From a virus, in the IMG/VR virus record IMGVR_UViG_3300021963_000315, positions 1 to 37,744 of that record: 37,744 nt of DNA. One strand, given 5' to 3'. The notes beneath the pieces were generated by a model. That model saw only the letters and a list, made by a program, of their open reading frames with translations. It was not told the DNA's origin and did no database searches. Below are positions 1-27,219 of the stretch, in pieces; the stretch's first letter is position 1, and each line of letters starts with the position of its first letter. The position numbers and the translations under genes were made by a program.

Positions 1-1
1 T

Positions 2-601
2 ACAGTTGCTAAGCTAGGTTCGCCTGCTACTGCTACTGCCGGTACATTCAACCTAGACGTTGACTCTAACGGTCGTTGGTCTGTTGAGCGTTTCAAAGGT
101 CTATTGTTTAACATCGAACGCGATGCTAACCACATTGGTCAAGACACTCGTCGTGGTAAAGGTAACTTCATTGTTTGCTCTGCTGACGTAGCTTCCGCAT
201 TGGCCATGGCTGGTGTGTTGGATTACACTCCCGCATTGTCTACAAACTTGAACGTTGATGATACTGGTAACACATTTGCTGGTGTATTGAACGGTCGTTT
301 CAAAGTATATGTTGATCCATATTCTGCCAACCTCGGTTCTGCTAACCAGTTCTACGTTGTTGGTTACAAAGGTACTTCACCTTATGACGCAGGTATTTTC
401 TACTGCCCTTACGTTCCATTGCAAATGGTTCGCGCAGTTGATCCTAACAGCTTCCAGCCAAAAATCGGCTTCAAGACTCGTTACGGTATGATTGCTAACC
501 CATACGTTACAACTTCTGCTTCTGGCGCTGCTGATGCATCGACCTTTACAGCTAACCGTAACCAATACTATCGTCGTACCAAGGTTACTAACTTGATGTA
601 A
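2..601 (+). CDS. 23: Major capsid protein gp23, C-terminal part (5' truncated by window)
   Basis: The reading frame is open from base 2 and ends at TAA 599-601, giving about 199 residues of a protein that starts outside the window. The segment RWSVERFKGLLF followed by IERDANHIGQDTRRGKGNF and ASALAMAGVLDYTPAL matches what I know of the C-terminal half of T4 gp23, the HK97-fold hexamer subunit of the head. It is the last gene before a strong terminator, as expected for the end of the late head operon. An internal ATG at 104 is in frame, but the homology clearly extends upstream of it. Assignment is by family recognition; identity is very likely. Confidence 0.95.
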   Translation, partial: TVAKLGSPATATAGTFNLDVDSNGRWSVERFKGLLFNIERDANHIGQDTRRGKGNFIVCSADVASALAMAGVLDYTPALSTNLNVDDTGNTFAGVLNGRFKVYVDPYSANLGSANQFYVVGYKGTSPYDAGIFYCPYVPLQMVRAVDPNSFQPKIGFKTRYGMIANPYVTTSASGAADASTFTANRNQYYRRTKVTNLM

Positions 602-640
602 TCTAAAGCCGTCGAGAAGAACGGATCCCGGCAACGGGTT

Positions 641-670
641 AAAAGGGAGCCTAAACAGCTCCCTTTTTTT
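641..670 (+). terminator. Rho-independent terminator after gp23
   Basis: AAAGGGAGC, a short loop CTAAACA, then GCTCCCTTTTTTT: a perfect stem followed by a T run, 40 nt after the capsid stop codon. Confidence 0.93.
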
Positions 671-673
671 CGT

Positions 674-681
674 TATAAATA
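674..681 (+). promoter_or_regulatory. T4-type late promoter
   Basis: TATAAATA is an exact match to the T4 late -10 consensus read by gp55-bearing RNA polymerase. It lies directly after the capsid terminator and 18 nt before the ATG of the tail-tube-like gene. The presence of gp55 in the same window supports its use. Confidence 0.85.
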
Positions 682-699
682 TTGTAAAGGAAACAATTA

Positions 700-1287
700 A
701 TGTTTACAGCCAATCTTTCAACAGTATTAAATGAAGTTAGTAGCATTACTACTACCCCTGTTACTAACTTTCTTAGACCGAACGCTTTTAGGTTTTTAAT
801 TAAAAATTTACCAAGCGTAGCATTTACATGTCAGTCGGCTAATCTCCCATCGTTGACATTAGGGTTTACAACTCAGCCAACACCGTTTATTGATATTCCG
901 CATGTGGGAGACAAGAATTTATTTGGAGATTTTACAATTCGGTTTTTAATTACCGAAGATATGTCAAATTATATCGAATTATATGAATGGTTAGTTGCAC
1001 TTGGCTTTCCAAACGACTATAATCAATATAGAAATTTTACTGGTGAACGGTTAAATAGGTTTCCTTTTGTTAAAGATGCTCGTGGAGCCCCGATGGCGGT
1101 AGCTTACTCAGATGCAACATTAACTATATTGGATAGTAATAATGTACCGAAGACGAATATTAATTTTAGAGATGTTTTTCCTGTTTCAGTAGAAGCTCTT
1201 GATTTTGAAATTACTTCTTCCTCGGTTGATTATTTCGTTGGTATCGCTTCTTTTAAATATAAACTATTTGATATTGAAGTATTATAA
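700..1287 (+). CDS. Tail-tube-like structural protein (gp19/gp54-type fold suspected)
   Basis: 195 residues. Segments such as RPNAFRFLIKNLP, FTCQSANLPSLTLG and IPHVGDKNLFGDFTIRFL have the layout of T4-like tail tube proteins and their baseplate-junction paralogues: an N-terminal RPN(x)F strand, a 'QSANLP' strand and a 'GD..F.D.T..FLI.ED' strand. The likely role is tail tube or tube initiator in the virion. It has its own late promoter with exact TATAAATA, consistent with a structural gene, and an AAAGGA ribosome site before the ATG. The family call rests on pattern memory; a baseplate or tail-completion role is equally possible. Confidence 0.55.
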   Translation: MFTANLSTVLNEVSSITTTPVTNFLRPNAFRFLIKNLPSVAFTCQSANLPSLTLGFTTQPTPFIDIPHVGDKNLFGDFTIRFLITEDMSNYIELYEWLVALGFPNDYNQYRNFTGERLNRFPFVKDARGAPMAVAYSDATLTILDSNNVPKTNINFRDVFPVSVEALDFEITSSSVDYFVGIASFKYKLFDIEVL

Positions 1288-1308
1288 TTCTTTTTTTGGA
1301 GCTAAATT

Positions 1309-2175
1309 ATGGCAACTAAGCAAGTTCAACTTTCCGTTGATGAAATTCGTAAAAATAAATTCTTTATCGCTACACCATGCTATGGTGGTCAGCTAAATGA
1401 ACCCTACTTTCGTTCAGTTATTAAGATGATGACATTCTTTAACGGTCATCAAATCCCTCTCGCTTTTGGTACTATTGCTAACGAGTCCTTAGTTACTCGT
1501 GCACGTAATGTATTAGTAGCATACTTTCTTGCATCTGATTATACCCATCTTATGTTTATCGATGCCGATATTGAATTTCAGACAGAAGATGTTTTGAAAT
1601 TATACGCGCATAAGAAAGATGTAGTCGTAGGTGCATATCCTAAAAAAGGTGTTGCATGGGATAGAATTCGTAGTAACTTAACAGACCCTGCTAACAAAGA
1701 TAAGCAAATAACTGATCGTGAGATTGCTGCTTTTGGTTCTGACTATGCTATTAACTTTAAGTTTGTTGATAAAGAGACCAAGACAATTGGTGTCGAGAAC
1801 GGGTTAGTTAAACTACATGATGCAGGTACAGGCTTCATGATGATTAGCCGTGAAGCTATCCTTAAGATGATTAAAGCATATCCTGAACTTAAGTATAACA
1901 ATGATGTTAACATCAACAATGCCGATCTGAAAGATCATTTCTATGCATTGTTTGATACGATGATCGACCCTATTGACCGTCGTTATCTGTCTGAAGACTA
2001 TACGTTCTGCCGTCGTTGGCAAGAACTTGGTGGTGATGTTTGGCTTGACCCTTCTATCTCCTTAAACCACTACGGTCATTTCTGCTTCCAAGGCAACCCT
2101 GAGGCTATTATTAACTTTGGCCCTCCTCCTGAAGAAGAAAGAAAAGACATTGTTACTTTAGATCTACCTGAATAA
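1309..2175 (+). CDS. GT-A type glycosyltransferase
   Basis: 288 residues. The N-terminus FFIATPCYGGQLNEPYF and the metal-binding DxD motif (D85-A-D87 in FIDADIEF) mark a GT-A fold nucleotide-sugar transferase, like those common in T4-like cyanophages. The C-terminal WLDPSISLNHYGHFCF segment also fits that group. The acceptor cannot be read from sequence: virion protein, host envelope or modified DNA are all possible. It sits after the tail-tube-like gene with a GGAGC ribosome site and may be co-transcribed from the late promoter at 674. Confidence 0.75.
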   Translation: MATKQVQLSVDEIRKNKFFIATPCYGGQLNEPYFRSVIKMMTFFNGHQIPLAFGTIANESLVTRARNVLVAYFLASDYTHLMFIDADIEFQTEDVLKLYAHKKDVVVGAYPKKGVAWDRIRSNLTDPANKDKQITDREIAAFGSDYAINFKFVDKETKTIGVENGLVKLHDAGTGFMMISREAILKMIKAYPELKYNNDVNINNADLKDHFYALFDTMIDPIDRRYLSEDYTFCRRWQELGGDVWLDPSISLNHYGHFCFQGNPEAIINFGPPPEEERKDIVTLDLPE

Positions 2176-2193
2176 AGTTACATTACCTATATT

Positions 2194-2634
2194 ATGAAAT
2201 TGAGTGAACTGACAGAGGAGTGGTCCAAGGACGCCCCTATTAATGAGACAAACCTAGGGCACGAAGCTGCCCGGGTCCCTATTCTACACTCCAAATATAT
2301 CACTGTGATGTCTACCACCAAGCTCCAACTCCGTAAGGCGGAGTCAGAGTATCTTAATACCAGACGTATGAAATACAAATACTTCAGGGGTGAAATGACT
2401 AAGCAGGAATTGGAAGATGAGGGCTGGTCTCAATACCAAGGTAATAAGCCATTGAAGAACGAGATGGATGAATTACTTGAATGTGATAATAAATTGATTG
2501 AGTTACAAGATAAGATAGAGTATTTTAAAACTACTATCTATACGCTAGAGCAAATAATCAGATCACTTAACTCTCGTACCTGGGATATTAAATCAAGTAT
2601 TGAGTGGGCTAAGTTTACTAACGGTATGATGTAA
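2194..2634 (+). CDS. uvsY: Recombination mediator UvsY
   Basis: 146 residues with the T4 UvsY pattern: N-terminal KLSELTEEWSKDAPINETNLG, then YxSKY..., an alpha-helical middle, and the C-terminal AIKSRxW-like segment SRTWDIKSSIEW. UvsY loads the UvsX recombinase onto gp32-coated single-stranded DNA. It overlaps the next gene, uvsW, by one base (TAATG), the gene order typical of T4-like phages. Confidence 0.9.
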   Translation: MKLSELTEEWSKDAPINETNLGHEAARVPILHSKYITVMSTTKLQLRKAESEYLNTRRMKYKYFRGEMTKQELEDEGWSQYQGNKPLKNEMDELLECDNKLIELQDKIEYFKTTIYTLEQIIRSLNSRTWDIKSSIEWAKFTNGMM

Positions 2635-4121
2635 TGGCCGATATAGCAATCAAAAAGAAAAATGAAGTATACTTAACAGTACAGACAGATCCCTCTATTG
2701 CGCAGGAGCTGGTAGATCATTTTTCTTTTGATGCCCCTGGTGCTAAGTTTCATCCTCTCTTTCGTAATAAAATATGGGATGGTAAGATCAGACTCTTCTC
2801 TATGTTTACAAAAGAGTTATATGTTGGTCTTAAAAGTTATTTGGAGCATTTTGCCGAGGTTAATCAATACACAATTGATTATAGCGAGTATATTGACCAA
2901 GCTGATTCCGTAACATTAGAACTTGTAAGAGATTTTATTAATGAACTTAACCTATCATTGCCCGGTGGCGAATCCATCAGAGATTATCAGCTCGATGCGG
3001 TTTATAGAGCAATTACCGATGGAAGACGTCTTCTTCTGTCCCCTACAGGTTCCGGTAAGTCACTCATTATCTACTGTCTATTGCGTTGGAATGAAAAGTT
3101 TGGAAGGCGCCAACTTATCCTGGTCCCTACAACCTCTTTAGTAGAGCAAATGTATGCAGATTTTCAATCCTATTCACAAAATAATGGATGGAAGTCATCA
3201 GAAAACTGCTCGCGTATATACTCCGGGCACTCTAAAGAAAACCTACTTCCAATAGTAATTTCTACTTGGCAATCTATCTACGAATTACCTAAGAAGTTCT
3301 TTGAGAACTACCAGGTTGTGTATGGAGATGAGGCGCATACATTTAAAGCTAAATCGCTAACTGGTATCATGCATAAGATGGTTAATACACCTTATCGTAT
3401 TGGTACGACTGGTACGTTAGATGGTACTAAGACTCATAAGTTAGTACTAGAAGGTCTATTTGGTTCTGTATACAAGGTAACATCTACCAAGCAGTTGATG
3501 GATAATGATCAGCTTGCAGAGTTAAAGATCTTTGGTCTGGTACTTCAATACCCTGATGATGTTAAGAAAGCTTGCAAGGATAATAAGTACCCCGATGAGA
3601 TGACTTTTCTTTGTGGATATGAGCCTAGAAATAAATTCATTCGTAATCTTGCTCTCAGTCAAACAGGTAACTCGTTAGTGCTATTTCAATATGTTGAGAA
3701 GCATGGTCAAATACTCTTTGATATGATTAAGGCTAAAGCCGGAGATAGAAAAGTATTCTTTGTATTCGGAGGTACTGAGACTGCTGATAGAGAAAACATA
3801 AGACGTATTACCGAACAAGAGAATGATGCTATTATTGTTGCATCCTACGGTACGTTTTCTACAGGCATAAATATTAGGAACCTTCACAATATTATATTTG
3901 CATCGCCAACTAAATCAAGAATTAGAAACTTACAATCGGTAGGTAGGGGGTTAAGAAAAGGTGATGCAAAGACGCATTGTAATTTATACGACATTGGTGA
4001 TGATCTGACTTGGAAAACAAGAAAAAATTATACATTATTGCATATGATCGAAAGAATTAAAACCTATAATGATGAGCACTTTGACTACAATCTAGTAAAG
4101 GTATCTCTAAATGTACTGTAA
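2634..4121 (+). CDS. uvsW: ATP-dependent DNA helicase UvsW
   Basis: 495 residues, usual length for UvsW. Superfamily 2 motifs are in order: a RDYQLDAV Q-like motif near 116, Walker A SPTGSGKS at 136-143, DEAH at 232-235, GTTGTLDG motif III near 258, and motif VI QSVGRGLRKG. UvsW unwinds branched intermediates and R-loops and moves T4-like phages from origin- to recombination-dependent replication. It is translationally coupled to uvsY by a one-base overlap. Confidence 0.95.
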   Translation: MADIAIKKKNEVYLTVQTDPSIAQELVDHFSFDAPGAKFHPLFRNKIWDGKIRLFSMFTKELYVGLKSYLEHFAEVNQYTIDYSEYIDQADSVTLELVRDFINELNLSLPGGESIRDYQLDAVYRAITDGRRLLLSPTGSGKSLIIYCLLRWNEKFGRRQLILVPTTSLVEQMYADFQSYSQNNGWKSSENCSRIYSGHSKENLLPIVISTWQSIYELPKKFFENYQVVYGDEAHTFKAKSLTGIMHKMVNTPYRIGTTGTLDGTKTHKLVLEGLFGSVYKVTSTKQLMDNDQLAELKIFGLVLQYPDDVKKACKDNKYPDEMTFLCGYEPRNKFIRNLALSQTGNSLVLFQYVEKHGQILFDMIKAKAGDRKVFFVFGGTETADRENIRRITEQENDAIIVASYGTFSTGINIRNLHNIIFASPTKSRIRNLQSVGRGLRKGDAKTHCNLYDIGDDLTWKTRKNYTLLHMIERIKTYNDEHFDYNLVKVSLNVL

Positions 4122-4533
4122 GTTTATAAAGTTAACCAGTGGAGAAAATTTAATTGTCTCTACTGAAGATGAGTGTGTGGATCTGACTGATAATAAGTAT
4201 ATTGAAGTTTCAGAGCCTGTAGAAATACATTCGATGAAAATGCCCTATGCTGGTGGAGTTATTGAGTCCTATATTATGCAACCATGGCTTAAAATGTCTG
4301 CAAAAGAAGTTTTGAGAATTCCGGCTCGTAACGTTATAATTGCAACAAATGTGTTAGAGAAAGCCGAATCTCAGTATAAACAATTTATAATAGAGTACGA
4401 TAGTTTTGCAATGGCTACTGAAGAAGATATTGATGAAGCACTTTTAGGTGATATCGATATTGAAGGAAATGAAATCACCGAGGAGGATGATAATGATAGT
4501 TGGAGAAGTGGTTCCGATAGGACCTATCACTGA
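4111..4533 (+). CDS. Conserved phage protein, LSm-like N-terminus suspected
   Basis: 140 residues. The opening FIKLTSGENLIVST and later MPYAGGVIESYIMQPWLKMS resemble small beta-barrel, Hfq/LSm-like phage proteins found between uvsW and gene 55 in related genomes; the C-terminus is acidic. It overlaps uvsW by 11 nt and gene 55 by 41 nt. Function unknown: an RNA-binding or structural role is a guess from the N-terminal pattern. Confidence 0.75.
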   Translation: MYCKFIKLTSGENLIVSTEDECVDLTDNKYIEVSEPVEIHSMKMPYAGGVIESYIMQPWLKMSAKEVLRIPARNVIIATNVLEKAESQYKQFIIEYDSFAMATEEDIDEALLGDIDIEGNEITEEDDNDSWRSGSDRTYH

Positions 4534-5068
4534 AAAAAAAGCACCTGCACATTATGTAGACAATAAAAAGTTTTTCGAAGCTTTAGTTGAGTATCGTAAG
4601 CTGGTGCTTGATGCAGCTGCTAAGGGTGAAGAGAGACCGAGAGTAACGGAATATATTGGGGAGTGCTTTCTCAAGATAGCTACCCACCTTTCATATAAAG
4701 CCAATTTTATTAACTACACCTATAAAGATGATATGATATCAGACGGTATCGAAAATTGTCTTACAGCAGTTATTAAGTTTGACCCCGAGCGGGGTATGAA
4801 CCCATTTGCCTACTTTACGCAAATTACTTTTTTTGCATTCGTAAGACGGATTCAGAAAGAAAAGAAACAACAAGCAACCAAGTACAAGTTAATGGAGAAC
4901 ATTGATATTGATATGCTGATAGCTCATTCTGAAGGTAATGAAGAATTCGCAAATTCTTTAGTAGAAATGATGAGAAAACAAGTAGATAACATCGATGTTG
5001 ATAAGAGAACGGTAAAAAAACCTAAGAAAAAAGCCGTTTCTGACGAAGGAACCCTTGACATTGAATAA
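4493..5068 (+). CDS. 55: Late-transcription sigma factor gp55
   Basis: 191 residues from the ATG at 4493, chosen because a full AGGAGG site lies at 4481-4486, six bases upstream; an in-frame ATG at 4448 has no such site. The central region (DDMISDGIENCLTAVIKFDPERGMNPFAYFTQITFFAFVRRI, split here by function: 'DGIENCLTAV' and 'NPFAYFTQI') is the sigma region 2 core conserved in T4 gp55. gp55 directs host RNA polymerase to TATAAATA late promoters. The C-terminus is Lys-rich, where T4 gp55 contacts the gp45 clamp. Confidence 0.92.
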   Translation: MIVGEVVPIGPITEKKAPAHYVDNKKFFEALVEYRKLVLDAAAKGEERPRVTEYIGECFLKIATHLSYKANFINYTYKDDMISDGIENCLTAVIKFDPERGMNPFAYFTQITFFAFVRRIQKEKKQQATKYKLMENIDIDMLIAHSEGNEEFANSLVEMMRKQVDNIDVDKRTVKKPKKKAVSDEGTLDIE

Positions 5069-5083
5069 GGTATAGTATATAAT
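5055..5083 (+). promoter_or_regulatory. Sigma70-type promoter inside the end of gene 55
   Basis: TTGACA at 5055-5060 and TATAAT at 5078-5083 with a 17-nt spacer, a perfect consensus. The expected start point, 7 nt after the -10, is the A of the next gene's ATG (5090), so the mRNA may be leaderless. Confidence 0.88.
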
Positions 5084-5089
5084 AGGCTT

Positions 5090-5404
5090 ATGCCTGTTAA
5101 AGTATATTATTACACTAAAGATAAAGATGGTTACGTCACCCCAGACGCAACCTACGAGAGTACTCCGGAAGACGAGGATGGTCTTTTCCTATGGCAGCAC
5201 ATTAATAAAGCTCGTAAGCAAGCTGGTGTACCCCGAGAACGTTTCTTTATAATTAATACTTCTTGCTCACCTCGTAAGAAGTCCACCTGGATTAATCCAG
5301 ATTGGCCTGTAGTACCTTTTCCTAAGCTTAAAAAAGCTAAACTGGCTTTCGGTAGATATGTTATCGAGAAACCACCAGAACCCGTTGATCCTGATTATGA
5401 CTAG
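5090..5404 (+). CDS. Hypothetical protein (104 aa)
   Basis: Not recognised. Soluble, Lys-rich and Pro-rich C-terminus (EKPPEPVDPDYD). Central CSPRKKSTWINPDWPVVPFPK. No ribosome site stands at the usual spacing, and the ATG is placed exactly where transcription from the 5055 promoter should begin. Codon use resembles its neighbours. Confidence 0.75.
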   Translation: MPVKVYYYTKDKDGYVTPDATYESTPEDEDGLFLWQHINKARKQAGVPRERFFIINTSCSPRKKSTWINPDWPVVPFPKLKKAKLAFGRYVIEKPPEPVDPDYD

Positions 5405-5414
5405 CCTATATAAT
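5385..5414 (+). promoter_or_regulatory. Sigma70-type promoter ahead of the 7-deazaguanine cluster
   Basis: TTGATC at 5385-5390 and TATAAT at 5409-5414, 18-nt spacer, overlapping the end of the preceding gene. It is the only clear promoter before the queE-queD gene run and may drive it. Confidence 0.75.
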
Positions 5415-5450
5415 GGATCGTGCCCTTCCACGTACAACTAGGAGAATCTA

Positions 5451-5627
5451 ATGATTCAATTTGACTTTGATCTGCTTCCAGATCCCGACCGCCACCGTAA
5501 GATTAGCTTTGTAAAAAGCGGTCTACGTATTCTAGCTGGCATTGCCCTCATTTTCGGTAGTCTCATTACTACTGGTATCCTCTTAATCATTGCTGAAATT
5601 CTCGGCATTGCGGAGGAGCTTGTCTAA
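5451..5627 (+). CDS. Small membrane protein (58 aa)
   Basis: Starts at ATG 5451 behind AGGAGA (5440-5445) and ends in a TAATG overlap with queE. The N-terminus (FDFDLLPDPDRHRKISF) is polar; residues about 29-50 (ILAGIALIFGSLITTGILLI) form one transmembrane helix. Similar short proteins with the DPDRHRKISF signature occur in T4-like cyanophages as far as I recall. Function unknown. Confidence 0.8.
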   Translation: MIQFDFDLLPDPDRHRKISFVKSGLRILAGIALIFGSLITTGILLIIAEILGIAEELV

Positions 5628-6484
5628 TGGCTAAACTAAAAGTAGCAGAACTATTCTACTCCATTCAAGGCGAAGGCCGGTATATGGGTGTACCTTCTGT
5701 ATTCCTTCGCACCTTTGGTTGTAACTTTACCTGTAGTGGTTTTGGTATGCCTAAGGGTGAGTCTAGTAAAGAGGTTGACTATGTGGCTGCAGAGGTTGGT
5801 AAGTTTCTTTCATATAAAGAACTACCGCTTGTTAGTACAGGTTGTGATTCATACGCTAGTTGGGATCCTCGTTTTAAGCATCTATCTCCCGTTCTTGATA
5901 CTGACTCGATTGCCGAAGCTGTTGTTGACTCTCTACCGTACAAAGAATGGAAGGAAGAACATCTTGTAATTACCGGGGGCGAGCCTTTACTAGGTTGGCA
6001 GAGAGCGTACCCTGACTTGCTCGAACATCCAAAGATGAGAGCATTAAAGGAGATTACATTTGAGACCAATGGTACTCAAGAACTTACCGAAACGTTTAAA
6101 GACTATCTTGATAGATGGGGCTGGGGGGTACCTGGTAACTTCGATCGTCAAATTACATTCTCAGTATCACCTAAGCTATCGGTATCAGGTGAGAAGTGGG
6201 ATGAAGCTATTAAACCTGAAATTGTTGCAGACTACAGTAACGTAGGTTATGTGTATTTAAAGTTTGTAGTTGCATCTCAAGAAGATGCTGATGAAGCAGA
6301 AAAAGCAGTAGAAGCATACCGTGCAGCTGGCTTTGTGGGGCCGGTATACTTGATGCCTGTTGGTGGTGTTGAGTCGGTATATCATATGAACAACCGGGCT
6401 GTGGCAGAACTTGCCATGAAGAAGGGGTATCGTTACAGCGATCGTCTTCAAGTGCCTTTATTTAAAAACGAATGGGGAACCTAA
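5627..6484 (+). CDS. queE: 7-carboxy-7-deazaguanine synthase QueE (radical SAM)
   Basis: 285 residues. QueE converts 6-carboxytetrahydropterin to 7-carboxy-7-deazaguanine (CDG). Family marks seen: the N-terminal ELFYSIQGEGRYMGVPSVFLR, the FITGGEPLL-type motif (VITGGEPLL) and FETNGTQ. The iron-sulfur cysteines are unusual: C32 and C36 (GCNFTCSG) are present, but the third appears to be C73 in TGCDSYASWD, so the normal CX3CX2C motif is split by about 36 residues. It leads the biosynthetic run, overlapping the small membrane gene by one base. Confidence 0.9.
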   Translation: MAKLKVAELFYSIQGEGRYMGVPSVFLRTFGCNFTCSGFGMPKGESSKEVDYVAAEVGKFLSYKELPLVSTGCDSYASWDPRFKHLSPVLDTDSIAEAVVDSLPYKEWKEEHLVITGGEPLLGWQRAYPDLLEHPKMRALKEITFETNGTQELTETFKDYLDRWGWGVPGNFDRQITFSVSPKLSVSGEKWDEAIKPEIVADYSNVGYVYLKFVVASQEDADEAEKAVEAYRAAGFVGPVYLMPVGGVESVYHMNNRAVAELAMKKGYRYSDRLQVPLFKNEWGT

Positions 6485-6485
6485 A

Positions 6486-7163
6486 ATGTCATTACAAATT
6501 GGAAAAACGGACGCCGAACTCGGCTATAAAGTAGAAGAATATCTTATCTCTAAAGGCGTTCATACACCTATTGTATTGGATAGACTTGGAGTTAAAGATG
6601 AGCGTAAGATTGCAAAGATCGAAAAGAACTTTGCTGTTATTATGGAGACGTTGGGTCTTGACTTGACCGATGACTCGTTGATGGATACTCCTAAGCGTGT
6701 AGCTAAGATGTTTGTACGAGAAATCTTCTGGGGCTTGAAACCTGAGAACTTTCCTAAGTGTACTGTCATTGAGAATAAGATGGGGTACGACGAAATGGTG
6801 GTTGAGAAAGACATTACTATGATGTCTAACTGCGAGCATCACTTTGTTACCATCGACGGTAAGGCACATATTGGTTATATTCCTAAAGGTAAGGTACTTG
6901 GTCTATCTAAGTTAAATCGTATTGTAGAATACTTTGCCCGTCGCCCTCAGGTACAGGAACGTATTGCCGAACAGGTATACCATGCATTGTGCTTTATTCT
7001 TGGTACTGAAGATGTTGCCGTTGTGATTGAAGGTACTCATTACTGCGTTAAGTCACGAGGTGTTGAAGATCATTCCTCATCTACCCTTACAGCCAAGCTT
7101 GGTGGTTGCTTTAAGAGTGAGCCCGATTGCCGAGCTGAATTTATGTCTTTAATTAAGAGGTAA
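6486..7163 (+). CDS. folE: GTP cyclohydrolase I
   Basis: 225 residues, normal length. Clear GCH-I motifs: MSNCEHHFVTIDGKAHIGYIP (zinc and substrate residues), GLSKLNRIVEYFARRPQVQE and a C-terminal EGTHYCVKSRGVED with the second zinc cysteine. It makes 7,8-dihydroneopterin triphosphate from GTP, the first step to preQ0. Starts one base after queE's stop, consistent with co-transcription. Confidence 0.96.
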   Translation: MSLQIGKTDAELGYKVEEYLISKGVHTPIVLDRLGVKDERKIAKIEKNFAVIMETLGLDLTDDSLMDTPKRVAKMFVREIFWGLKPENFPKCTVIENKMGYDEMVVEKDITMMSNCEHHFVTIDGKAHIGYIPKGKVLGLSKLNRIVEYFARRPQVQERIAEQVYHALCFILGTEDVAVVIEGTHYCVKSRGVEDHSSSTLTAKLGGCFKSEPDCRAEFMSLIKR

Positions 7164-7166
7164 TTT

Positions 7167-7604
7167 ATGACATGGTATGCAAACTCCGAAGGTCGCTATG
7201 GTGCCAAGGGTGCCAAAGGTGACCTTGGTGAAGCAATTGTTGCAGAATATTGCAAGACTAATAATATCTTATATGAGGATAAAAACGATATTAAGAGTCA
7301 AGTAGTACTAAAAATTGATTGTATTATTGATGGAGTTGCTATAGATGTTAAGTCAAATTATTATAAGGGTACCCTTTGTGTAGAATTGTTTAATAACAGA
7401 AAACAGCGCGCAGGGTGGTTATATACTACAATGGCTAAACAAATTTACGGGGTAGATGTGGATACTAGATCTATTTACCGTTATAATATAGAAGATATGA
7501 TAGCTTATGTAAGTATGAATGAGCACCGAGCAAAGAAGACTAAGTACGATGATACCGTCATCTGGGCCCCTGTTGCATTAGATATTATTGAGAAACTACA
7601 ATGA
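7167..7604 (+). CDS. PD-(D/E)XK-type nuclease-like protein
   Basis: 145 residues. KGDLGEAIVAEYCKTNNILYED followed by KIDCIIDGVAIDVKSNYYKG matches the restriction-endonuclease fold order: a helix with Glu, a beta strand with Asp (D in KIDCIID) and the x-D-V-K motif. This suggests a DNA nuclease or resolvase. It lies between folE and dpdA and overlaps dpdA by 4 nt, so it is produced with the DNA-modification enzymes; a link to degrading unmodified DNA is inference. The Hjc-type Holliday junction nuclease is another possibility. Confidence 0.65.
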   Translation: MTWYANSEGRYGAKGAKGDLGEAIVAEYCKTNNILYEDKNDIKSQVVLKIDCIIDGVAIDVKSNYYKGTLCVELFNNRKQRAGWLYTTMAKQIYGVDVDTRSIYRYNIEDMIAYVSMNEHRAKKTKYDDTVIWAPVALDIIEKLQ

Positions 7605-8401
7605 AAATTAGTCATGAATCCCCGCTTTGCCTTCTTGATCGGTCTCGTAGTTATAACGATTACGATTACGCTCTTGTCCACTTGTTCGAGACCGAACCAA
7701 CCTACCTACAATTCTTTAAAGACTCTCTAGCTCAAGGTCGAACTGTATTACTAGATAATTCTATCTTTGAGTTAGGTACTGCTTTTGATTCCGATAAGTT
7801 TGCCCATTGGATTAAAGAGCTACAACCAACTGAGTATATTATCCCTGATGTACTTGAAGATACTCTCGGTACAATGGATAATGCCCTGGACTGGAAAGAA
7901 AAGTATTCTGATCTACCGGGTAAGACTATTGGTGTTGTCCAGGGTAAGAGTTATGCAGATCTCGTACAATGCTATGACTATCTAGATAATATTATTGGTG
8001 TAGATAAGATTGCTATTTCTTTTGACTATTCGTACTACCTTGAGGTTTGCCCTCATCCAAATAAATGGATGGGGTATGCGTTAGGTAGAGTACAAACTTT
8101 GACTAGGTTACTAAATGACGGTGTTATCAATACTAAGAAACCACATCACCTCCTTGGTTGTGCGCTTCCAATTGAGTTCATGTTCTATCGTGAAGGATTC
8201 GAATGGTTGGACTCGTTGGATACTTCCAATCCTATTGTCCATGCTTTGTTGGACTTTGGCTACGAGCCTGGTGGTCTGGTTAGTAAAAAATCCATTAAGC
8301 TCATTGAATTACTTAACACTCCTGAACCCTCGGTAGCTGCTATGCATACCATTAATCATAATATTAAGTATTTCAGATCATACGTTCATGGTTACAGATA
8401 A
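7601..8401 (+). CDS. dpdA: DpdA-like DNA (7-deazaguanine) transglycosylase
   Basis: 266 residues. The pattern LLDNSIFELG (50-59), IIPDVLED (80-87), GVVQG (111-115), HLLGCALPIEF (183-193) and WLDSLDTSNP (202-211) matches the phage DpdA branch of the tRNA-guanine transglycosylase superfamily, which exchanges guanine in DNA for preQ0 or preQ1. D52, D83 and D207 are candidate catalytic or binding residues by analogy with TGT. No TGT zinc-binding Cys cluster is visible. Its neighbours provide every step of preQ1 synthesis and a formyltransferase, which strongly supports a DNA-modifying role rather than tRNA queuosine. Confidence 0.85.
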   Translation: MKISHESPLCLLDRSRSYNDYDYALVHLFETEPTYLQFFKDSLAQGRTVLLDNSIFELGTAFDSDKFAHWIKELQPTEYIIPDVLEDTLGTMDNALDWKEKYSDLPGKTIGVVQGKSYADLVQCYDYLDNIIGVDKIAISFDYSYYLEVCPHPNKWMGYALGRVQTLTRLLNDGVINTKKPHHLLGCALPIEFMFYREGFEWLDSLDTSNPIVHALLDFGYEPGGLVSKKSIKLIELLNTPEPSVAAMHTINHNIKYFRSYVHGYR

Positions 8402-8943
8402 TGAATTGGATTGCATTCTTTAGTCAAACAGGTTCAGAGATTGTTGAGTTATCTAAGTCTATTAATCGTAAACCAGACTTAATAGTAACTAATAACTTCG
8501 AAGATAAAATTAAATTTCACCCGGGCATTCGTGACCTGGGTGTTACTATTATGTCTGCCAAGCATGACATGCTAATGAACTACTTTAGAAATCAGGTGGT
8601 ATATAATGTTCCTCAGACCCTTATTAGTCTTCATGGCTACCTTCGCATTCTACCAGCTGATATATGTGAGAAATATCAAGTATATAACGGTCACCCTGGA
8701 GCAATTACTCTCTTCCCTGAGTTAAAAGGAAAAGATCCGCAAGAAAAAGTATGGCAAGAAAACGACAAGTATAATATAATAGGTAGTGTTGTACATAAAT
8801 GTACAGCTGAACTAGATGGTGGTGATGTACTGAAATCTGTTTATGTACGTAATAGAAATTATACTAGAGAAGATCTTTATGCCTCTCTTAAGATGACTTC
8901 GTTATCGGCATGGAATTTCTTCTTGAGGGAAAAAGGATTATGA
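8401..8943 (+). CDS. Formyltransferase (PurN/Fmt-like), probable base-modifying enzyme
   Basis: 180 residues. The formyltransferase core is visible: SLHGYLRILP, then YNGHPGAITLFPELKGKD with N96/H98/P99, and ELDGGDVL with D139, matching the Asn-His-Asp catalytic triad of PurN. These enzymes use 10-formyl-tetrahydrofolate. It overlaps dpdA by one base and P-loop gene by 4 nt. With QueF present to make preQ1, whose aminomethyl group is a natural acceptor, the best inference is formylation of preQ1, before or after insertion in DNA. A role in purine synthesis is less likely given the context. Confidence 0.85.
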   Translation: MNWIAFFSQTGSEIVELSKSINRKPDLIVTNNFEDKIKFHPGIRDLGVTIMSAKHDMLMNYFRNQVVYNVPQTLISLHGYLRILPADICEKYQVYNGHPGAITLFPELKGKDPQEKVWQENDKYNIIGSVVHKCTAELDGGDVLKSVYVRNRNYTREDLYASLKMTSLSAWNFFLREKGL

Positions 8944-9473
8944 GAATTGGTATAACGGGTGCGCAGTCGGTAGGTAAAACTACTCTACTAAATGCATTGC
9001 GTTCAGAAAAACTATTTAAAGATTATGTAATATGTGACGAGGTAACTCGTCGCGTAAAGGGTTATGGCTTACCTATTAACGAAGACGGTACTGATAATAC
9101 TCAACGTCTGATTATGAATGAGCATATTGTTAATGTTTTCATGCATGGTAATATGTTAACTGATCGTACCGCATTAGACGGTCTGGTATATAGTACGTAT
9201 CTTTATAAAAATAATAAGATAACAAATAATACTTTAAAATATGCAAAAGATGTATTTAATAAAGTATGGAATTCCTACGACTATGTGTTCTATATTGAGC
9301 CTGAGTTCGAGATTGTAGACGATGGTGTACGTAGTGTTGATAAGCAGTTTAGAAATGAGATTGCTGATCTGTTTGAAACTACTATTGAAAAAGAAAAGTT
9401 AAGCTTGCGTAGAGTTAAAGGCTCAGTACGCGATAGAGTTAATACGATTATAGATTATTTAGAAGGAAGATAA
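8940..9473 (+). CDS. NadR-like P-loop ATPase/kinase
   Basis: 177 residues from ATG 8940, chosen because AAGGA lies at 8934-8938 and the start overlaps the upstream stop as ATGA; an ATG at 8910 adds 10 residues but lacks homology. Walker A GAQSVGKTT is at residues 7-15, with TDRTALDGLVYSTYLY and YIEPEF further on, the layout of AAA_28/NadR nicotinamide-riboside kinase-type proteins. It may phosphorylate a nucleoside or nucleotide. Placement between the formyltransferase and queF suggests a part in the base-modification pathway, but no substrate can be read. Confidence 0.75.
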   Translation: MRIGITGAQSVGKTTLLNALRSEKLFKDYVICDEVTRRVKGYGLPINEDGTDNTQRLIMNEHIVNVFMHGNMLTDRTALDGLVYSTYLYKNNKITNNTLKYAKDVFNKVWNSYDYVFYIEPEFEIVDDGVRSVDKQFRNEIADLFETTIEKEKLSLRRVKGSVRDRVNTIIDYLEGR

Positions 9474-10396
9474 TGAATAACCAAGAAGAATTGAATAAGC
9501 TAGTTGGCGTTCACCTAGGTAAAGCCGGTGATGGGACTGCAGTTAAGCCATATGTAACTCCTGATACTGTAGACCCTACTCTATTAGTATCTGTTCCGAG
9601 AATCTTAAATAGAACAGCATATGAGATTGATGAGTCGAACTTACCGTTCGTAGGTGTAGATGCATGGAATGCTTATGAATTCTCTACCTTACTTGTAAAC
9701 GGGTTTCCTGTATCAGGTTGGCTAAAGTTTACCTATCCTTCTGATTCTCCTAATATTGTAGAGTCAAAGTCGGTTAAGTTATATTTGAACTCTTATAATA
9801 TGGCTAAGCTAGTTACTACTACCGATGATATGTGGCAGGTAGAAGATAAGATTGCAAAGGATATATCTGAAGCAGTAGGTGCTGAGGTAGACGTGTTTGT
9901 TCGTTGGGGTGATGTTGATACCGTCAGGCCTATTGTTGGTGATTTTATTTCCTTAGAGCATTATTGCAATATTGGTAAGATGACGTTTGATGAGTATAAT
10001 GAAAGCCCTAATACATTACAAGTCGTACCTTCTATTGGTCGATATGAAAAGTGGCGATCATATTCGCTAAGATCTAATTGCCGGGTAACTAACCAGCCAG
10101 ATTGGGGTGATGTGTATATTCATATTAAAGGTGAGAGAGCTGTTACCCCGGAGTCATTACTTAAGTATATTGTATCGATGCGTAAAGAGAATCACTTTCA
10201 TGAAGAGATTGCCGAATGCATTTATAAGCGTCTCTTTGACTTACTTCAACCTGAAGAGCTATTTGTAGCGTGTTTGTATACGCGTCGAGGTGGTATTGAT
10301 ATTAACCCTGTACGTGCAAGTGATAACAGAGTACTCTATAAGTATGCAGCAATCGCCGATGTAACTAACTTCTGTACAAAGACTGCAAGACAATGA
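9473..10396 (+). CDS. queF: NADPH-dependent 7-cyano-7-deazaguanine reductase QueF
   Basis: 307 residues, the long two-module QueF type. NADPH-binding motif ESKSVKLYLNS at 97-107; catalytic Cys203 and Asp210 in SNCRVTNQPDWGD (same seven-residue spacing as in E. coli QueF); H243-E244 in HFHEE. It reduces the nitrile preQ0 to the amine preQ1. The intact ESKS motif argues against the archaeosine-forming QueF-like amidinotransferase. One-base overlap with the upstream gene and a 4-nt overlap downstream. Confidence 0.93.
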   Translation: MNNQEELNKLVGVHLGKAGDGTAVKPYVTPDTVDPTLLVSVPRILNRTAYEIDESNLPFVGVDAWNAYEFSTLLVNGFPVSGWLKFTYPSDSPNIVESKSVKLYLNSYNMAKLVTTTDDMWQVEDKIAKDISEAVGAEVDVFVRWGDVDTVRPIVGDFISLEHYCNIGKMTFDEYNESPNTLQVVPSIGRYEKWRSYSLRSNCRVTNQPDWGDVYIHIKGERAVTPESLLKYIVSMRKENHFHEEIAECIYKRLFDLLQPEELFVACLYTRRGGIDINPVRASDNRVLYKYAAIADVTNFCTKTARQ

Positions 10397-10638
10397 CCAG
10401 ACCAAATAAGTTAGTTAAATTTGAAATGTGTGTTGAAGATAACAACGTTAATGAAATATGTCTTGAGTACATGAAGAGAGCCGATCATGGATTTAAGAAG
10501 TATGGGGTAACTACCGAGCGTAGAGACCTAGACTTAATGGATTGGATTCAACATTTAAAAGAAGAGCTGATGGATGCAACGGTCTATATCCACCGTATTC
10601 AAAAAGAATTGAAAGTGAAACAAGATGACCTCAAGTGA
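10393..10638 (+). CDS. Small protein, all-alpha NTP-pyrophosphatase-like pattern
   Basis: 81 residues. The segment RADHGFKKYGVTTERRDLDLMDWIQHLKEELMDATVYIHRI (given by parts: KKYG, DLMDWIQHLKEELMDA) resembles short phage proteins with an EExxD helix reminiscent of MazG-like nucleotide pyrophosphohydrolases. A full MazG metal site (two EExxE/ExxD pairs) is not visible. It overlaps queF by 4 nt and queC by 14 nt. Function unproven. Confidence 0.7.
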   Translation: MTRPNKLVKFEMCVEDNNVNEICLEYMKRADHGFKKYGVTTERRDLDLMDWIQHLKEELMDATVYIHRIQKELKVKQDDLK

Positions 10639-11386
10639 AGCGCTAGCATTATTGCCCGATGTGAAGGGCTGTGTTGTGATCCTATCCGGTGGTATGGATA
10701 GTACTATTGCAATGAGATTGGCTGTACATAAGTATGGCAAAGAAAATGTATCTGCATTAACCTTCTACTATGGCCAGAAGCAGAGACGAGAGATTGAGAT
10801 GGCTAGGATGTCTACCCAGATGCTGGGGGTTAAGCATCGAGTTGTAGATGCATCGTTCCTTGGCGATATCAGTAAAGGCTTTTCTGCTAACGTTGATACC
10901 GATATGGCTATGCCTACGATTAAAGACGTTCTTGGTGATCCTCGCCCTAAGACATACGTACCTAATCGTAATATGATCTTGATGTCTATTGCTGCCGCTT
11001 TTGCAGAGACACAAAACGTTGAAACTGTTGTATGCGGGTTACAGGTGCATGATGAGTATGGGTATCATGATACGACTCAGCGCTGGGTAGATAAAGTAAA
11101 TGACTTGCTATCTGAAAATCGTATTATTAAGATTAAGCTTACTGCTCCCTTCAGTCAACTATCTAAGTACGATGAGTTACAGATCTTGCAAGAGCTGGAT
11201 GGTAACTTAACGCTTACATCGTTTACTATGACCTGTTACAACCCAGATGACCAGCATCGTTCTTGTGGTGAGTGTCCTAGTTGCTCCGAACGTATTGCCA
11301 ATTTCGCTAAAATAGGTTATAATGATCCAGTTGAGTATTCTAAAGTAATCCCCTGGCAAGACCTAATCGAAAGAATGAAGGTGTAA
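10625..11386 (+). CDS. queC: 7-cyano-7-deazaguanine (preQ0) synthase QueC
   Basis: 253 residues. PP-loop SGGMDST at 21-27, YVPNRNMILMSIAAAFAE near 111-128, and the four-cysteine zinc site C204, C214, C217, C220. QueC converts CDG to preQ0 using ATP and ammonia. It overlaps the upstream small gene by 14 nt and is followed after one base by a stand-alone class II glutamine amidotransferase, the domain that is fused to QueC in Gat-QueC proteins. Confidence 0.95.
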   Translation: MTSSEALALLPDVKGCVVILSGGMDSTIAMRLAVHKYGKENVSALTFYYGQKQRREIEMARMSTQMLGVKHRVVDASFLGDISKGFSANVDTDMAMPTIKDVLGDPRPKTYVPNRNMILMSIAAAFAETQNVETVVCGLQVHDEYGYHDTTQRWVDKVNDLLSENRIIKIKLTAPFSQLSKYDELQILQELDGNLTLTSFTMTCYNPDDQHRSCGECPSCSERIANFAKIGYNDPVEYSKVIPWQDLIERMKV

Positions 11387-11387
11387 A

Positions 11388-12005
11388 ATGTGCGCAATAA
11401 CCGGATCATTGTATAAAGAAAAACTTAAAGATTTATATACTCTAAATGCTTATAGAGGTGAGTTGAACTACTCATTAGCTACCTTTAAACCATATAAGGG
11501 TAAGATAGAGTTTCAAACTCTATTCCAAGATGCCGGTAAAATGCCTGATACATTAATTGAGAATATACCTTGTAAAGAAGGTGACTTTATAATCGCTCAT
11601 TCTCAAGCACCTACAACGAATTCGAATAATATTCACCCAGCGGTATATGGTGATGCTATGCTATGGCATAATGGTATTATTAAGCAGAATAAACTTAGCC
11701 CTGGTACTTGGGATACCGCTTGGTTGCTTGAACAAATTACTGACTACGGCTGGTCATCATTATCTAGGGTAGATGGAACGTTTGCCTGTATTATGTACAT
11801 GAGTGGTAGTCTTTATGTATTCAGAAATGAAATTTCACCTCTGTTTATAGATGATCACTTTAATATATCTTCAACAAAGTATCAAGGCAGTGTATCGCTT
11901 ACTCCGAATCAAGTCTTTAAATTAAATTTTGAAACTAAGTATCTTGACACCGTAGCTTATTTCGCGACGAAAGAGAATCCATATTATATACCGGAGAATG
12001 CATGA
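11388..12005 (+). CDS. Class II glutamine amidotransferase (Ntn-hydrolase)
   Basis: 205 residues. It begins MCAITGSL, exposing Cys2 as the N-terminal nucleophile after Met removal. Further marks are FIIAHSQAPT, LWHNGIIKQ (the W/V-H-NG motif) and RVDGTFACIMY. It lacks a synthase domain, so it should release ammonia from glutamine for a partner. The partner is most likely QueC, whose gene ends one base earlier, by analogy with Gat-QueC of archaea and of some modified-DNA phages. The alternative is the PP-loop protein encoded at 35333. Confidence 0.85.
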   Translation: MCAITGSLYKEKLKDLYTLNAYRGELNYSLATFKPYKGKIEFQTLFQDAGKMPDTLIENIPCKEGDFIIAHSQAPTTNSNNIHPAVYGDAMLWHNGIIKQNKLSPGTWDTAWLLEQITDYGWSSLSRVDGTFACIMYMSGSLYVFRNEISPLFIDDHFNISSTKYQGSVSLTPNQVFKLNFETKYLDTVAYFATKENPYYIPENA

Positions 12006-12532
12006 CAGTTACATATAAATTATATTCAGAACCCTTTAGTATGAAGCACGTAATGGGTGAAAGTAGTAGGACTAAGCTAACCAATGTTGTTGATGGAGAT
12101 ATTCAACCTAATGCTGTAGATCTACGTTTAGGTAAGGTATTTCAAATTAACAATGAAGTGTTTGAGGTAAGCAATGATCACAAAAAGCATAGAGGCTCTA
12201 CGGAACTCAATCCAGACGGAGAAGGTTATTTTACGCTATACCCGGGGAGTTATGAGATCGTTATGGAAAACGTCATCCATGTGGGTGAAGGTGAAGCTGG
12301 TTGGGTCATTACTCGTAGCACTCTTAACCGCAATGGTTGTTTTATTACTTCAGGTCTTTATGATTCTGGCTATCATGGTGTCATGGCCGGGGTACTACAT
12401 GTTACGACTGGCCCGGCTCGCATTAAGCAAGGTACGAGAGTAGGTCAGTACTTGTCTTTTGATGCAGAAGCGCTTAAAATGTACGACGGCAGTTATGGTA
12501 TTGGTAAAGAGCACGATAAAAAGTATACATAA
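12002..12532 (+). CDS. dUTPase / dCTP deaminase superfamily protein
   Basis: 176 residues. IQPNAVDLRLG (35-45), TRSTLNRNG (104-112) and SGLYDSGYHG (117-126, D121 as the motif III Asp) are the trimeric dUTPase/dCTP deaminase fold. The Dcd-specific catalytic Glu (position after 'G..VLE') is not evident, since MAGVLH stands there; dUTPase activity is therefore at least as likely as deaminase. It acts on the pyrimidine deoxynucleotide pool. 4-nt overlap with the amidotransferase gene. Confidence 0.8.
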   Translation: MTVTYKLYSEPFSMKHVMGESSRTKLTNVVDGDIQPNAVDLRLGKVFQINNEVFEVSNDHKKHRGSTELNPDGEGYFTLYPGSYEIVMENVIHVGEGEAGWVITRSTLNRNGCFITSGLYDSGYHGVMAGVLHVTTGPARIKQGTRVGQYLSFDAEALKMYDGSYGIGKEHDKKYT

Positions 12533-12604
12533 TGAACAAGCGGCCTCCGGCGTCATCCCGCTCTATAAACTCTGCTGCCTATGCTAACTAACATAGGATT
12601 AAAA

Positions 12605-13081
12605 ATGGCAAAAAAATATATTTCAACTAAAACTTATAAGCAGATCGGGCCTGTTGCGTACCGTCAGTGGCGAGCTGATAGTCATTGCAATATGGTGCAT
12701 GGTTATGCTTTATCATTTCACTTTGAGTTTGAATCCGATACACTAGATGTTCGCAATTGGGTAATGGATTTTGGTGGTCTGCGTCCATTAAAAGATAAAC
12801 TAGAAGAATGGTTTGATCATACATTACTCGTTGCTCAAGACGACCCTAAAAGAGAATACCTACTTGAACTTGGTCGCCATGGTATTGCTAAGATTACAGA
12901 AGTAGAAAAGACCGGGTGTGAAGGTCTTGCAGATTTCTTGTACGAGTATATTAATACTATCTTTTTACCAAGCTACGGTGAGCAAGATCGTATTTGGTGC
13001 TGTAAAGTAGAGGTACGGGAGACTGATAGCAATATGGCTATGCGCGTTGGTCATCAAGAAGACAATGAGTACAATGATTAA
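12605..13081 (+). CDS. queD: 6-carboxy-5,6,7,8-tetrahydropterin synthase QueD-like
   Basis: 158 residues from ATG 12605 (AGGA at 12595-12598); an in-frame ATG at 12581 is less well placed. QueD/PTPS marks are C28-NMV-H32-GY, MDFGGLRPLKD (54-64), FDHTLLV (70-76) and the C-terminal KVEVRET. It supplies carboxy-tetrahydropterin to QueE. The canonical zinc motif HGH reads HGY (Tyr34), and the upstream zinc His is not obvious, so the metal site looks altered. About 70 nt of non-coding sequence with a weak AGCGG/CCGCT hairpin (12539-12562) separates it from the previous gene. Confidence 0.87.
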   Translation: MAKKYISTKTYKQIGPVAYRQWRADSHCNMVHGYALSFHFEFESDTLDVRNWVMDFGGLRPLKDKLEEWFDHTLLVAQDDPKREYLLELGRHGIAKITEVEKTGCEGLADFLYEYINTIFLPSYGEQDRIWCCKVEVRETDSNMAMRVGHQEDNEYND

Positions 13082-25261: not shown

Positions 25262-25412
25262 TATTATAGAATTTAAAGACCTAGAATCAGAAGATGAATT
25301 CATAAAAAAAGAGCTTGAACTACTCCAAGCCCTTAATCCCATCTTTCTCCGTACAGAAGAGTTACCTGAAGACTTTATCTTTGAGAATCCAGATAGTCTC
25401 TCATCTCATTGA
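25254..25412 (+). CDS. Hypothetical acidic protein (52 aa)
   Basis: Starts MTDIIEFKDLESEDEFIKKE. Its last 38 bases overlap the convergent NUMOD3 gene, so its C-terminus may have been altered by insertion of that gene. Not recognised. Confidence 0.55.
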   Translation: MTDIIEFKDLESEDEFIKKELELLQALNPIFLRTEELPEDFIFENPDSLSSH

Positions 25413-25704
25413 ACTTTCTCTTACCTATCTTATAGCCATCGGGTGCATTATCTCTACGATAAGTCTTATCCGAACGATTTACAATCCATCTGGCACCATC
25501 GATTCTATCATCGTGACCCCTTGAATGCCGTATCCTATCCTTAGAGGCAGTAGAGTGTTTCTTACCTAGATGGTTTGCCTTACCAGACATAGAAGAAGAA
25601 ATCTTAGACTTAGTTTCGGCATCGTGCCTAGAACCGCGATGGGCGGAGGCAATGGCAGCCTTATGGAGACCGGTCATACGATATTCTCTTAGAGTCTTAG
25701 ACAT
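25375..25704 (-). CDS. Second NUMOD3 homing-endonuclease-like protein (109 aa)
   Basis: NUMOD3-type repeat RHDAETKSKISSSMSGKANH then LGKKHSTASKDRI, and a C-terminal RWIVNRSDKTYRRDNAPDGY like the end of the gene at 16932. No nuclease catalytic domain is visible, so it is a remnant, a DNA-binding piece or an atypical nuclease. A perfect late-promoter box stands upstream on the same strand (25858-25865). Confidence 0.7.
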   Translation of the reverse strand: MSKTLREYRMTGLHKAAIASAHRGSRHDAETKSKISSSMSGKANHLGKKHSTASKDRIRHSRGHDDRIDGARWIVNRSDKTYRRDNAPDGYKIGKRKFNEMRDYLDSQR

Positions 25705-26055: not shown

Positions 26056-26089
26056 CTTTAAAAACAAAAAAAAGGACCTATCAGGTCCT
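26056..26089 (-). terminator. Rho-independent terminator of the C-free operon
   Basis: Reverse strand: AGGACCTGATAGGTCCT followed by an eight-T run, then GTTTTT. It needs C for its stem and is where C reappears in the transcript. Confidence 0.9.
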
Positions 26090-26114
26090 ATACTACTATC
26101 AACCCCATTTCCAC

Positions 26115-26282
26115 TTAATTATAAAAGTCTTCTTCACCACTTATATAAACCCCATCATTATCATAACTAACTTCAACACTCTCATTACTACCACTTAATC
26201 CCCTACCTCTCTCTACACTAATATTAATATCCAAATCACCATTAACATCTTTCAAAATCTCCAACAATTCACTTACTTTCAT
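26115..26282 (-). CDS. C-free operon gene 4: acidic protein (55 aa)
   Basis: Begins MKVSELLEILKDVNGDLDIN, ends GEEDFYN. AAAGGAG ribosome site 7 nt before the ATG. The coding strand has a single C (26127, third base of a GAC codon), so the protein has no Ala, Pro, His, Gln or Thr. Strongly acidic. Not recognised; last gene before the terminator. Confidence 0.8.
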   Translation of the reverse strand: MKVSELLEILKDVNGDLDINISVERGRGLSGSNESVEVSYDNDGVYISGEEDFYN

Positions 26283-26298
26283 TACTATCTCCTTTAAA

Positions 26299-26505
26299 TT
26301 ATAAACCTAATAACTCTTTTTCATTATCATTTAAATCATAATTTTCTTCAATATAACCTATTAATCCACATCTCTCTTCATCAATATCACCCAAATAATC
26401 ACCATCTAACCCCATACAACCCAATTCATTAATAATCTCATTAATTCTATTATTCAAATTAATCAACTCTTCTTTACTCATTCTATAAAAATTATCTTCA
26501 AACAT
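26299..26505 (-). CDS. C-free operon gene 3: acidic protein (68 aa)
   Basis: No C at all in the coding strand. Helical, acidic (MSKEELINLNNRINEIINEL, then GDYLGDIDEERCGLIGYIEE). AAAGGA ribosome site. The protein lacks Ala, Pro, His, Gln and Thr, because every codon for those needs C. Not recognised. Confidence 0.8.
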   Translation of the reverse strand: MFEDNFYRMSKEELINLNNRINEIINELGCMGLDGDYLGDIDEERCGLIGYIEENYDLNDNEKELLGL

Positions 26506-26516
26506 TATATAATCCT

Positions 26517-26870
26517 TTATTCAACAATATAAAAATAAATTCTACCATCTTCTTCACCTAAACATTCAAAATAACTTTCTACATCATTAACATTATCCTC
26601 TACTTTTCCACTCTCACAAAACTCATCCCAATAATCATTATCAATACTTTCACCATCTTCTTTACACTCTTCTATTAACTCTTCTTTACTACTTAATTCA
26701 AACTCATTATTATCACTTACCTTAATAATATCATCTATCTCACCCCTACAACTAGTAATAAAACAATAAACACCTTCACCTTTATAATCTTCTACACTAT
26801 AATCAAAATTATTAAAATTATCACTAATATCTTTAAAACTACTACCTTTAACAAATTTAATCTTTTTCAT
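26517..26870 (-). CDS. C-free operon gene 2: acidic protein (117 aa)
   Basis: One C in the coding strand (position 26755, an ACT Thr codon in FITSC). Basic start MKKIKFVKG, then strongly acidic: about 33 Asp/Glu against 12 Lys/Arg. Contains EELIEECKEDGESIDNDYWD. AAAAAGGAAATAAA precedes the ATG. The charge would suit a DNA-mimic or inhibitor, but acidity is partly forced by the base composition. Not recognised. Confidence 0.82.
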   Translation of the reverse strand: MKKIKFVKGSSFKDISDNFNNFDYSVEDYKGEGVYCFITSCRGEIDDIIKVSDNNEFELSSKEELIEECKEDGESIDNDYWDEFCESGKVEDNVNDVESYFECLGEEDGRIYFYIVE

Positions 26871-26886
26871 TTTATTTCCTTTTTAA

Positions 26887-27111
26887 TTAACCAATTAATT
26901 CAACAAAACCTAATCTCTTCAATACTTCAATATCTTCTTCTTCATAAAACAAATAATCCTCTACTCCATATCCTTCAAACTCCATTATCTCTTTATAATC
27001 CTTCAATATAACAATCATCTCATTATCACTTAAATTATTCTTTTCAATAATCTCCTTAACACTCAATCCACCTAAACTACAATCTATATCAAAATTATCT
27101 ACATTATACAT
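26887..27111 (-). CDS. C-free operon gene 1: acidic protein (74 aa)
   Basis: First gene of the reverse-strand operon, with a strong AAAAGGAGATAAA ribosome site. No C in the coding strand. Sequence features: VKEIIEKNNLSDNEMIVILK then FEGYGVEDYLFYEEEDIEVL; helical and acidic. Not recognised. A 5' leader of about 96 nt, also C-free, separates it from the candidate promoter. Confidence 0.82.
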   Translation of the reverse strand: MYNVDNFDIDCSLGGLSVKEIIEKNNLSDNEMIVILKDYKEIMEFEGYGVEDYLFYEEEDIEVLKRLGFVELIG

Positions 27112-27213
27112 TTTATCTCCTTTTAAATTTAACTTACTTTTTTCTTTTTCCTTACCCCTATTATAAACTATTTCCCCTTTTTCCCCTAATTTTAAACAAT
27201 ACCCAATTAAATT

Positions 27214-27219
27214 AGTATA
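27214..27219 (-). promoter_or_regulatory. Candidate -10 box of the C-free operon
   Basis: Reverse strand TATACT, with expected start near 27207, about 96 nt before the first gene. No good -35 is visible, so an activator or other sigma may be needed. The C in this box is the last C before the C-free transcript. Confidence 0.5.

Follow-up and report, generated by a model that had tools for sequence, protein, structure and literature searches.

An operon of four small genes in a viral genome carries almost no cytosine (C) on its RNA-sense strand, from a promoter-like sequence to a predicted terminator and with the untranslated parts included; this property defines the kind of unit that is here called a C-free viral operon. 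The sequences argue for a standing pressure against C along one operon's transcript, be it selection or another form of maintenance. The window, that is, the whole stretch of DNA analysed, is an entire IMG/VR virus record of 37,744 bp, which is probably a fragment of a genome; its T4-like genes include a late sigma factor, an nrdC.10-type ATPase and tRNAs.

A recount of the + strand between 26128 and 27214 (1,087 nt) gives T 423, A 384, C 279 and a single G at 26755, as the preliminary description had stated. The minus (RNA-sense) strand of 26087-27214 contains two C in 1,128 nt, at 26127 and 26755, both in an ACT context. The leader and spacers are C-free as well, including about 170 untranslated nt. 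A G-free run of 184 nt is found in none of 100 dinucleotide shuffles, against 720 overlapping matches in the window, and the remainder of the 37.7-kb window has no other run of at least 80 nt that lacks a base. The 5′ limit is set by the + strand G at 27215 within AGTATA, which is the C of the minus-strand TATACT. The terminator folds with −10.6 kcal/mol over a 60-nt stretch, and its arms contain four C; the RNA is C-free as far as the hairpin, not to its end. The limits of the tract thus coincide with promoter-like and predicted terminator sequences. The + strand tract and its edge at the −10 box had been placed correctly before; the minus-strand unit reaches further, to 26087, where it meets the stem of the terminator. 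The features of the unit and its surroundings are as follows (L handles denote loci in other records).
26066..26089, minus strand: predicted intrinsic terminator, AGGACCT-GAT-AGGTCCT followed by T8, from sequence and fold; 3′ limit of the tract
26087..27214, minus strand: C-free transcription unit, from base counts and contexts of residual C
26115..26282, minus strand: gene 4, 55 aa; the homologue in L011 is 76% identical and C-free too
26299..26505, minus strand: gene 3, 68 aa; L011 retains only its tail
26517..26870, minus strand: gene 2, 117 aa, acidic, SRG family; shared with L037, L046, L048, L054, L073 and gp143 of phage immuto_2-6A
26887..27111, minus strand: gene 1, 74 aa; family matches not above noise
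27112..27213, minus strand: untranslated leader, C-free by base counts
27214..27219, minus strand: candidate −10 box TATACT, from sequence; the same element is kept in L011
27231..27352, no strand assigned: ATATAAACTAGTTA repeats before the operon, with copies at 27231, 27263 and 27339 and a weaker copy near 27307
25375..25704, minus strand: NUMOD3 homing-endonuclease-type ORF, found in L011 and missing at this place in L010

None of the four proteins has a confident match in Pfam, PHROGs, NCBIfam or PADLOC, and no toxin, antitoxin or known defence family is matched among the PADLOC, Pfam or NCBIfam models.

Relatives gathered by a search with the neighbouring ATPase comprise 13 loci. In two of them (L011 and L012), a shorter cassette occupies the same place. 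It is about 80% identical and retains the leader, gene 4 and the tail of gene 3; the 323 nt that lie between the same limits as in the window are free of C. This form amounts to a one-gene version, and in five others the site is empty. Where the cassette is present, a motif of the AACTAGTTA type is repeated ahead of the operon; most empty sites hold a single copy, and none of the cassette-free relatives has more than one related motif there. L010 also lacks the nearby homing-endonuclease gene (the NUMOD3 ORF), which is an insertion separate from the C-free cassette. In a 159,688-bp relative, the tract is the sole G-free run of at least 120 nt; ten further records of the window's family contain none of this length. 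No intermediate states are seen among cassette-free relatives. Judged from these comparisons, the C-free operon is an optional, horizontally variable cassette.

The preliminary description had regarded the depletion as selected, and had suggested a comparison of homologues to see whether the C-free state is conserved while the proteins diverge. It is. Of the 1,076 substitutions counted in comparisons of homologous tracts, 12 involve C; for the flanks, the figure is 3,218 of 8,394 (38%). The window and L011 differ by 59 substitutions, one of which involves C. The purge is therefore maintained, by selection or otherwise, through hundreds of substitutions. Substitutions fall on the three codon positions in the numbers 225, 180 and 265, which means that the proteins evolve quickly.

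Such tracts are not peculiar to the window. Viral contigs were scanned with patterns in which a short anchor precedes 150 to about 180 letters other than C, and several dozen contigs proved to have C-free tracts bearing intact genes; the rest of these viruses' sequence has roughly 6-25% C. An antisense-ORF control is powerless here, because a C-free strand yields no ATG on the opposite strand. Examples of long tracts are listed below.
L056: 2,339 nt, 2 C
L068: 1,959 nt, 1 C
L048: 1,929 nt, 1 C
L061: 1,493 nt, 0 C
L062: 1,206 nt, 0 C
L047: 1,163 nt, 0 C
L034: 1,024 nt, 0 C

The carriers are some viruses of bacteria and probably also of archaea; L034 and L036 look archaeal, with TATA-like boxes and oligo-T ends. 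For cellular genomes, the first pattern was extended to 180 non-C letters, a stricter form that 8 of 10 viral stretches pass. In 257 Gb of bacterial and archaeal genomes, this one pattern gave five matches and no C-free tract other than repeats or an apparent artefact: four matches (L039, L040, L042, L043) are simple repeats, and the fifth (L041; NZ_JADBGF010000002.1, Streptomyces stelliscabiei assembly, 1-8000) is an anomalous contig with 4.6% C and 31.8% G over 8 kb, which looks like a sequencing or assembly artefact. Among the later viral matches, L272, L285 and perhaps L281 look like repeats too. For the viral tracts themselves, an assembly artefact was rejected on the grounds of independent samples, intact frames, divergence that preserves the absence of C, and the occurrence in an isolate of a gene almost free of C; skew around a replication origin was rejected in view of the sharp edges at terminators and the empty cassette site in relatives. 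In the large records (for example G027, G029, G033, G041, G046, G048, G104 and G124), C-free tracts often lie within a few kb of a contig end; such an end may be the terminus of the genome or a break in the assembly. G104 (L319, L324) is a self-closing 105-kb viral contig with a 114-bp end overlap; within its 2.3-kb G-free tract, about 640 bp consist of A and T only.

Many tracts start near a promoter and stop within the 3′ arm of a terminator hairpin or immediately ahead of it. Some viruses have several successive C-poor units. Compared by eye, the C-free unit's leader in L046, L076 and immuto is recognisably that of neighbouring units, copied with its C replaced. Back to back with the operon, L061 and L073 each have another C-free stretch (318 nt in L061, 217 nt in L073) that runs divergently, so that the C-free strand switches at the promoter. 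With promoter and terminator edges in many unrelated viruses and divergent transcripts in two, the earlier proposal that the depletion belongs to the transcription unit is borne out. A codon-level tRNA effect was rejected, as leaders and spacers are likewise C-free. In L061 (626-967, minus strand), the leader and about the first 35 codons of a gene are C-free; beyond these, the encoded protein suddenly becomes rich in Pro, His, Gln and Asp. The C that remain within tracts stand in ACT in 16 of 48 cases, against 14% (p=5e-4, for the best of nine contexts and in part a Thr codon effect); this bias argues mildly for a sequence-dependent agent.

Most proteins of C-free operons are small and acidic and match nothing, and intact frames of up to 197 aa do without Gln, Pro, His, Ala and Thr. 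One recurrent family, SRG, is named for its motif (S/C)RG(E/G/S) and is common to unrelated viruses; other recurrent families include one that is probably coiled-coil and one that is winged-helix-like. L062 encodes a nucleotide-kinase-like protein whose P-loop contains neither Pro nor Thr. An AlphaFold model of the SRG family has a pLDDT of 48, too low for a structure search. When 23 C-free proteins were concatenated and compared by tblastn with 50,697 phage records, no match came up; the search missed the SRG protein of immuto, which was found through its C-free run, so this family lies beyond the reach of tblastn.

Flavobacterium phage immuto_2-6A, which infects Flavobacterium sp. LMO8, is the cultured example. 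Among 18 diverse QueC-bearing isolates, it alone has C-free runs of at least about 112 nt. Its gene gp143 (68,330-68,686), an SRG family member, has 5 C in 357 nt, compared with roughly 8-15% in most neighbouring genes. The phage carries the same 7-deazaguanine gene set as the window, and together with LMO8 it forms a phage-host pair that makes the question testable.

Presence or absence between relatives together with fast protein change is typical of counter-defence genes. The cassette, which is optional and horizontally variable and encodes fast-evolving proteins, resembles counter-defence in this respect, and for this reason a host attack on C is favoured here. The operon is an accessory one, probably with a counter-defence role. 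On the reading preferred here, to which slightly less than an even chance is given, it is kept C-free to stay expressible when C-containing viral operons cannot be expressed. The pressure would come from the host, through an attack on the C of RNA or on its synthesis, for which ddhCTP (a chain terminator), CTP loss, a C-to-U deaminase and a C-directed RNase are candidates. The operon would encode the counter-defence proteins needed during that attack. Of the four bases, C alone is needed neither in start and stop codons nor in ribosome sites, which would explain why only C is droppable. The preliminary description had listed an attack on C first among its hypotheses, and the optional, fast-evolving cassette appears to fit it. 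A chain terminator that mimics CTP, such as the ddhCTP of prokaryotic viperins, would leave RNA without C untouched; evasion by C-free transcripts is not described in the viperin papers found.

Some observations count against this preferred reading. The ACT bias of residual C would not be expected under ddhCTP or CTP loss. In L278 (IMGVR_UViG_3300025137_008346, 1-8409), one strand of the entire 8.4-kb contig has 34 C. The contig encodes two serine recombinases, and a gene on the opposite strand, at 8-298, is G-poor instead; depletion here follows the DNA strand irrespective of gene direction, not the transcript, and an RNA-level cause does not fit. The preferred reading also explains an association with 7-deazaguanine genes only indirectly, as co-occurring counter-defences.

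That association starts in the window itself, which encodes, by homology, FolE, QueD, QueE, QueC and a DpdA-type transglycosylase, the gene set of a 7-deazaguanine-modified phage.
5627..13081, + strand: 7-deazaguanine island, correlated with C-free operons
5627-6484, + strand: QueE
6486-7163, + strand: FolE
7601-8401, + strand: DpdA-like, 53% identical to the protein annotated DpdA in immuto
8401-8943, + strand: formyltransferase-like
9473-10396, + strand: QueF-like
10625-11386, + strand: QueC
12581-13081, + strand: QueD

The phosphoribosylglycinamide-formyltransferase-like gene (8401-8943) adjoins the DpdA-like gene in the window, in immuto and in the T4-like relatives G007 and G009; its product may decorate the deazaguanine base. 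7-Deazaguanine-modified phages such as 9g, CAjan, HVTV-1 and Vibrio nt-1 have been described in connection with restriction resistance (Hutinet et al. 2019, PMC6884629). Their pathway genes, those for DpdA-like proteins among them, recur in the window, in immuto and in many C-free viruses; for the known phages themselves, a C-free operon is not described.

C-free RNA corresponds to a G-free template strand. The main alternative reading is that viral guanines are replaced by 7-deazaguanine derivatives, that unaided host RNA polymerase reads modified template G badly, and that one early operon with a G-free template supplies proteins which then adapt the polymerase. In a first set of C-free records, 11 of 40 have QueC, FolE or QueD; a second set shows QueC or FolE in 8 of 28 records. 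Together this is 19/68 against 2/45 random viral records (p=0.001), where the random controls were searched for QueC and FolE, without QueD, which added no record beyond those two. The difference holds for records of 30-100 kb (9/32 versus 0/22, p=0.005); at 100 kb and above, the excess is not significant (8/11 versus 2/6). DpdA-like proteins are present in five fetched C-free records besides the window, the full island in the window and immuto, and the ACT bias of leftover C would fit a sequence-dependent modification. Against this stand G007 and G009, which have the full island and no C-free run. Relatives of the window's QueC occur in 309 of 50,697 isolate records, and no C-free tract is present in 17 of the 18 QueC-bearing isolates compared, among them HVTV-1 and relatives of 9g and CAjan. 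Conversely, no island genes were detected in G104, which is apparently complete. The remainder of each genome is, moreover, transcribed with G in the template. In view of G007, G009 and G104, modification is a correlate and not a sufficient cause; its genes are over-represented in C-free viruses, yet neither sufficient nor always present. The earlier idea of a template that avoids 7-deazaguanine gains a real statistical association, with the exceptions just named, and this reading of the G-free template is considered doubtful.

A mutational origin, in which strand-specific C-to-T change on the exposed non-template strand empties the unit, would track the direction of transcription and could yield limits at promoter and terminator, and the nearly C-free strand of L278 would suit it. 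Relative to the genome average, however, the gain in A within the window tract at least equals that in T; terminator stems retain C, although the rate needed to empty intact frames of such length should ruin terminators too; and the cassette arrives and remains C-free. Strand-biased C-to-T editing, which the preliminary description had also raised, is unlikely as sole cause, and mutation in place of selection is very improbable. Still less probable is simply good expression through escape from Rho-dependent termination or secondary structure: C-free RNA can form no G:C pairs and contains no C-rich Rho-binding sequence, but neither property requires 0-2 C per kilobase, the archaeal-looking L034 and L036 would have no Rho, relatives show no intermediates and the one-pattern scan of cellular genomes gave no such unit. 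The unstructured mRNA proposed earlier does not demand a total absence of C.

C-less and G-less cassettes, units without one base, serve in in vitro transcription. These are artificial and non-coding, whereas the viral C-free operons are natural, coding and multigene. The literature searched, including that around viperin, CTP depletion and deazaguanine, describes no C-free or cytosine-devoid transcripts, which is weak evidence, as most subscription journals lay outside the search; within it, the earlier statement that there is no described equivalent holds.

The finding points to strong and hitherto undescribed selection, common to unrelated viruses, that acts on a single base in the RNA of these viruses or in the template of that RNA. 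Tentatively, and at a little under even probability, viruses of bacteria and archaea would have repeatedly evolved operons written in A, G and U, immune to a widespread host attack on RNA cytosine or template guanine, which encode the proteins that switch this attack off. C-free tracts are a simple, alignment-free marker by which operons of this kind can be found in any genome, and the proteins they encode are candidates for new counter-defence factors. The viruses concerned seem to keep a protected channel for certain proteins when C-containing messages or guanine-altered DNA would fail.
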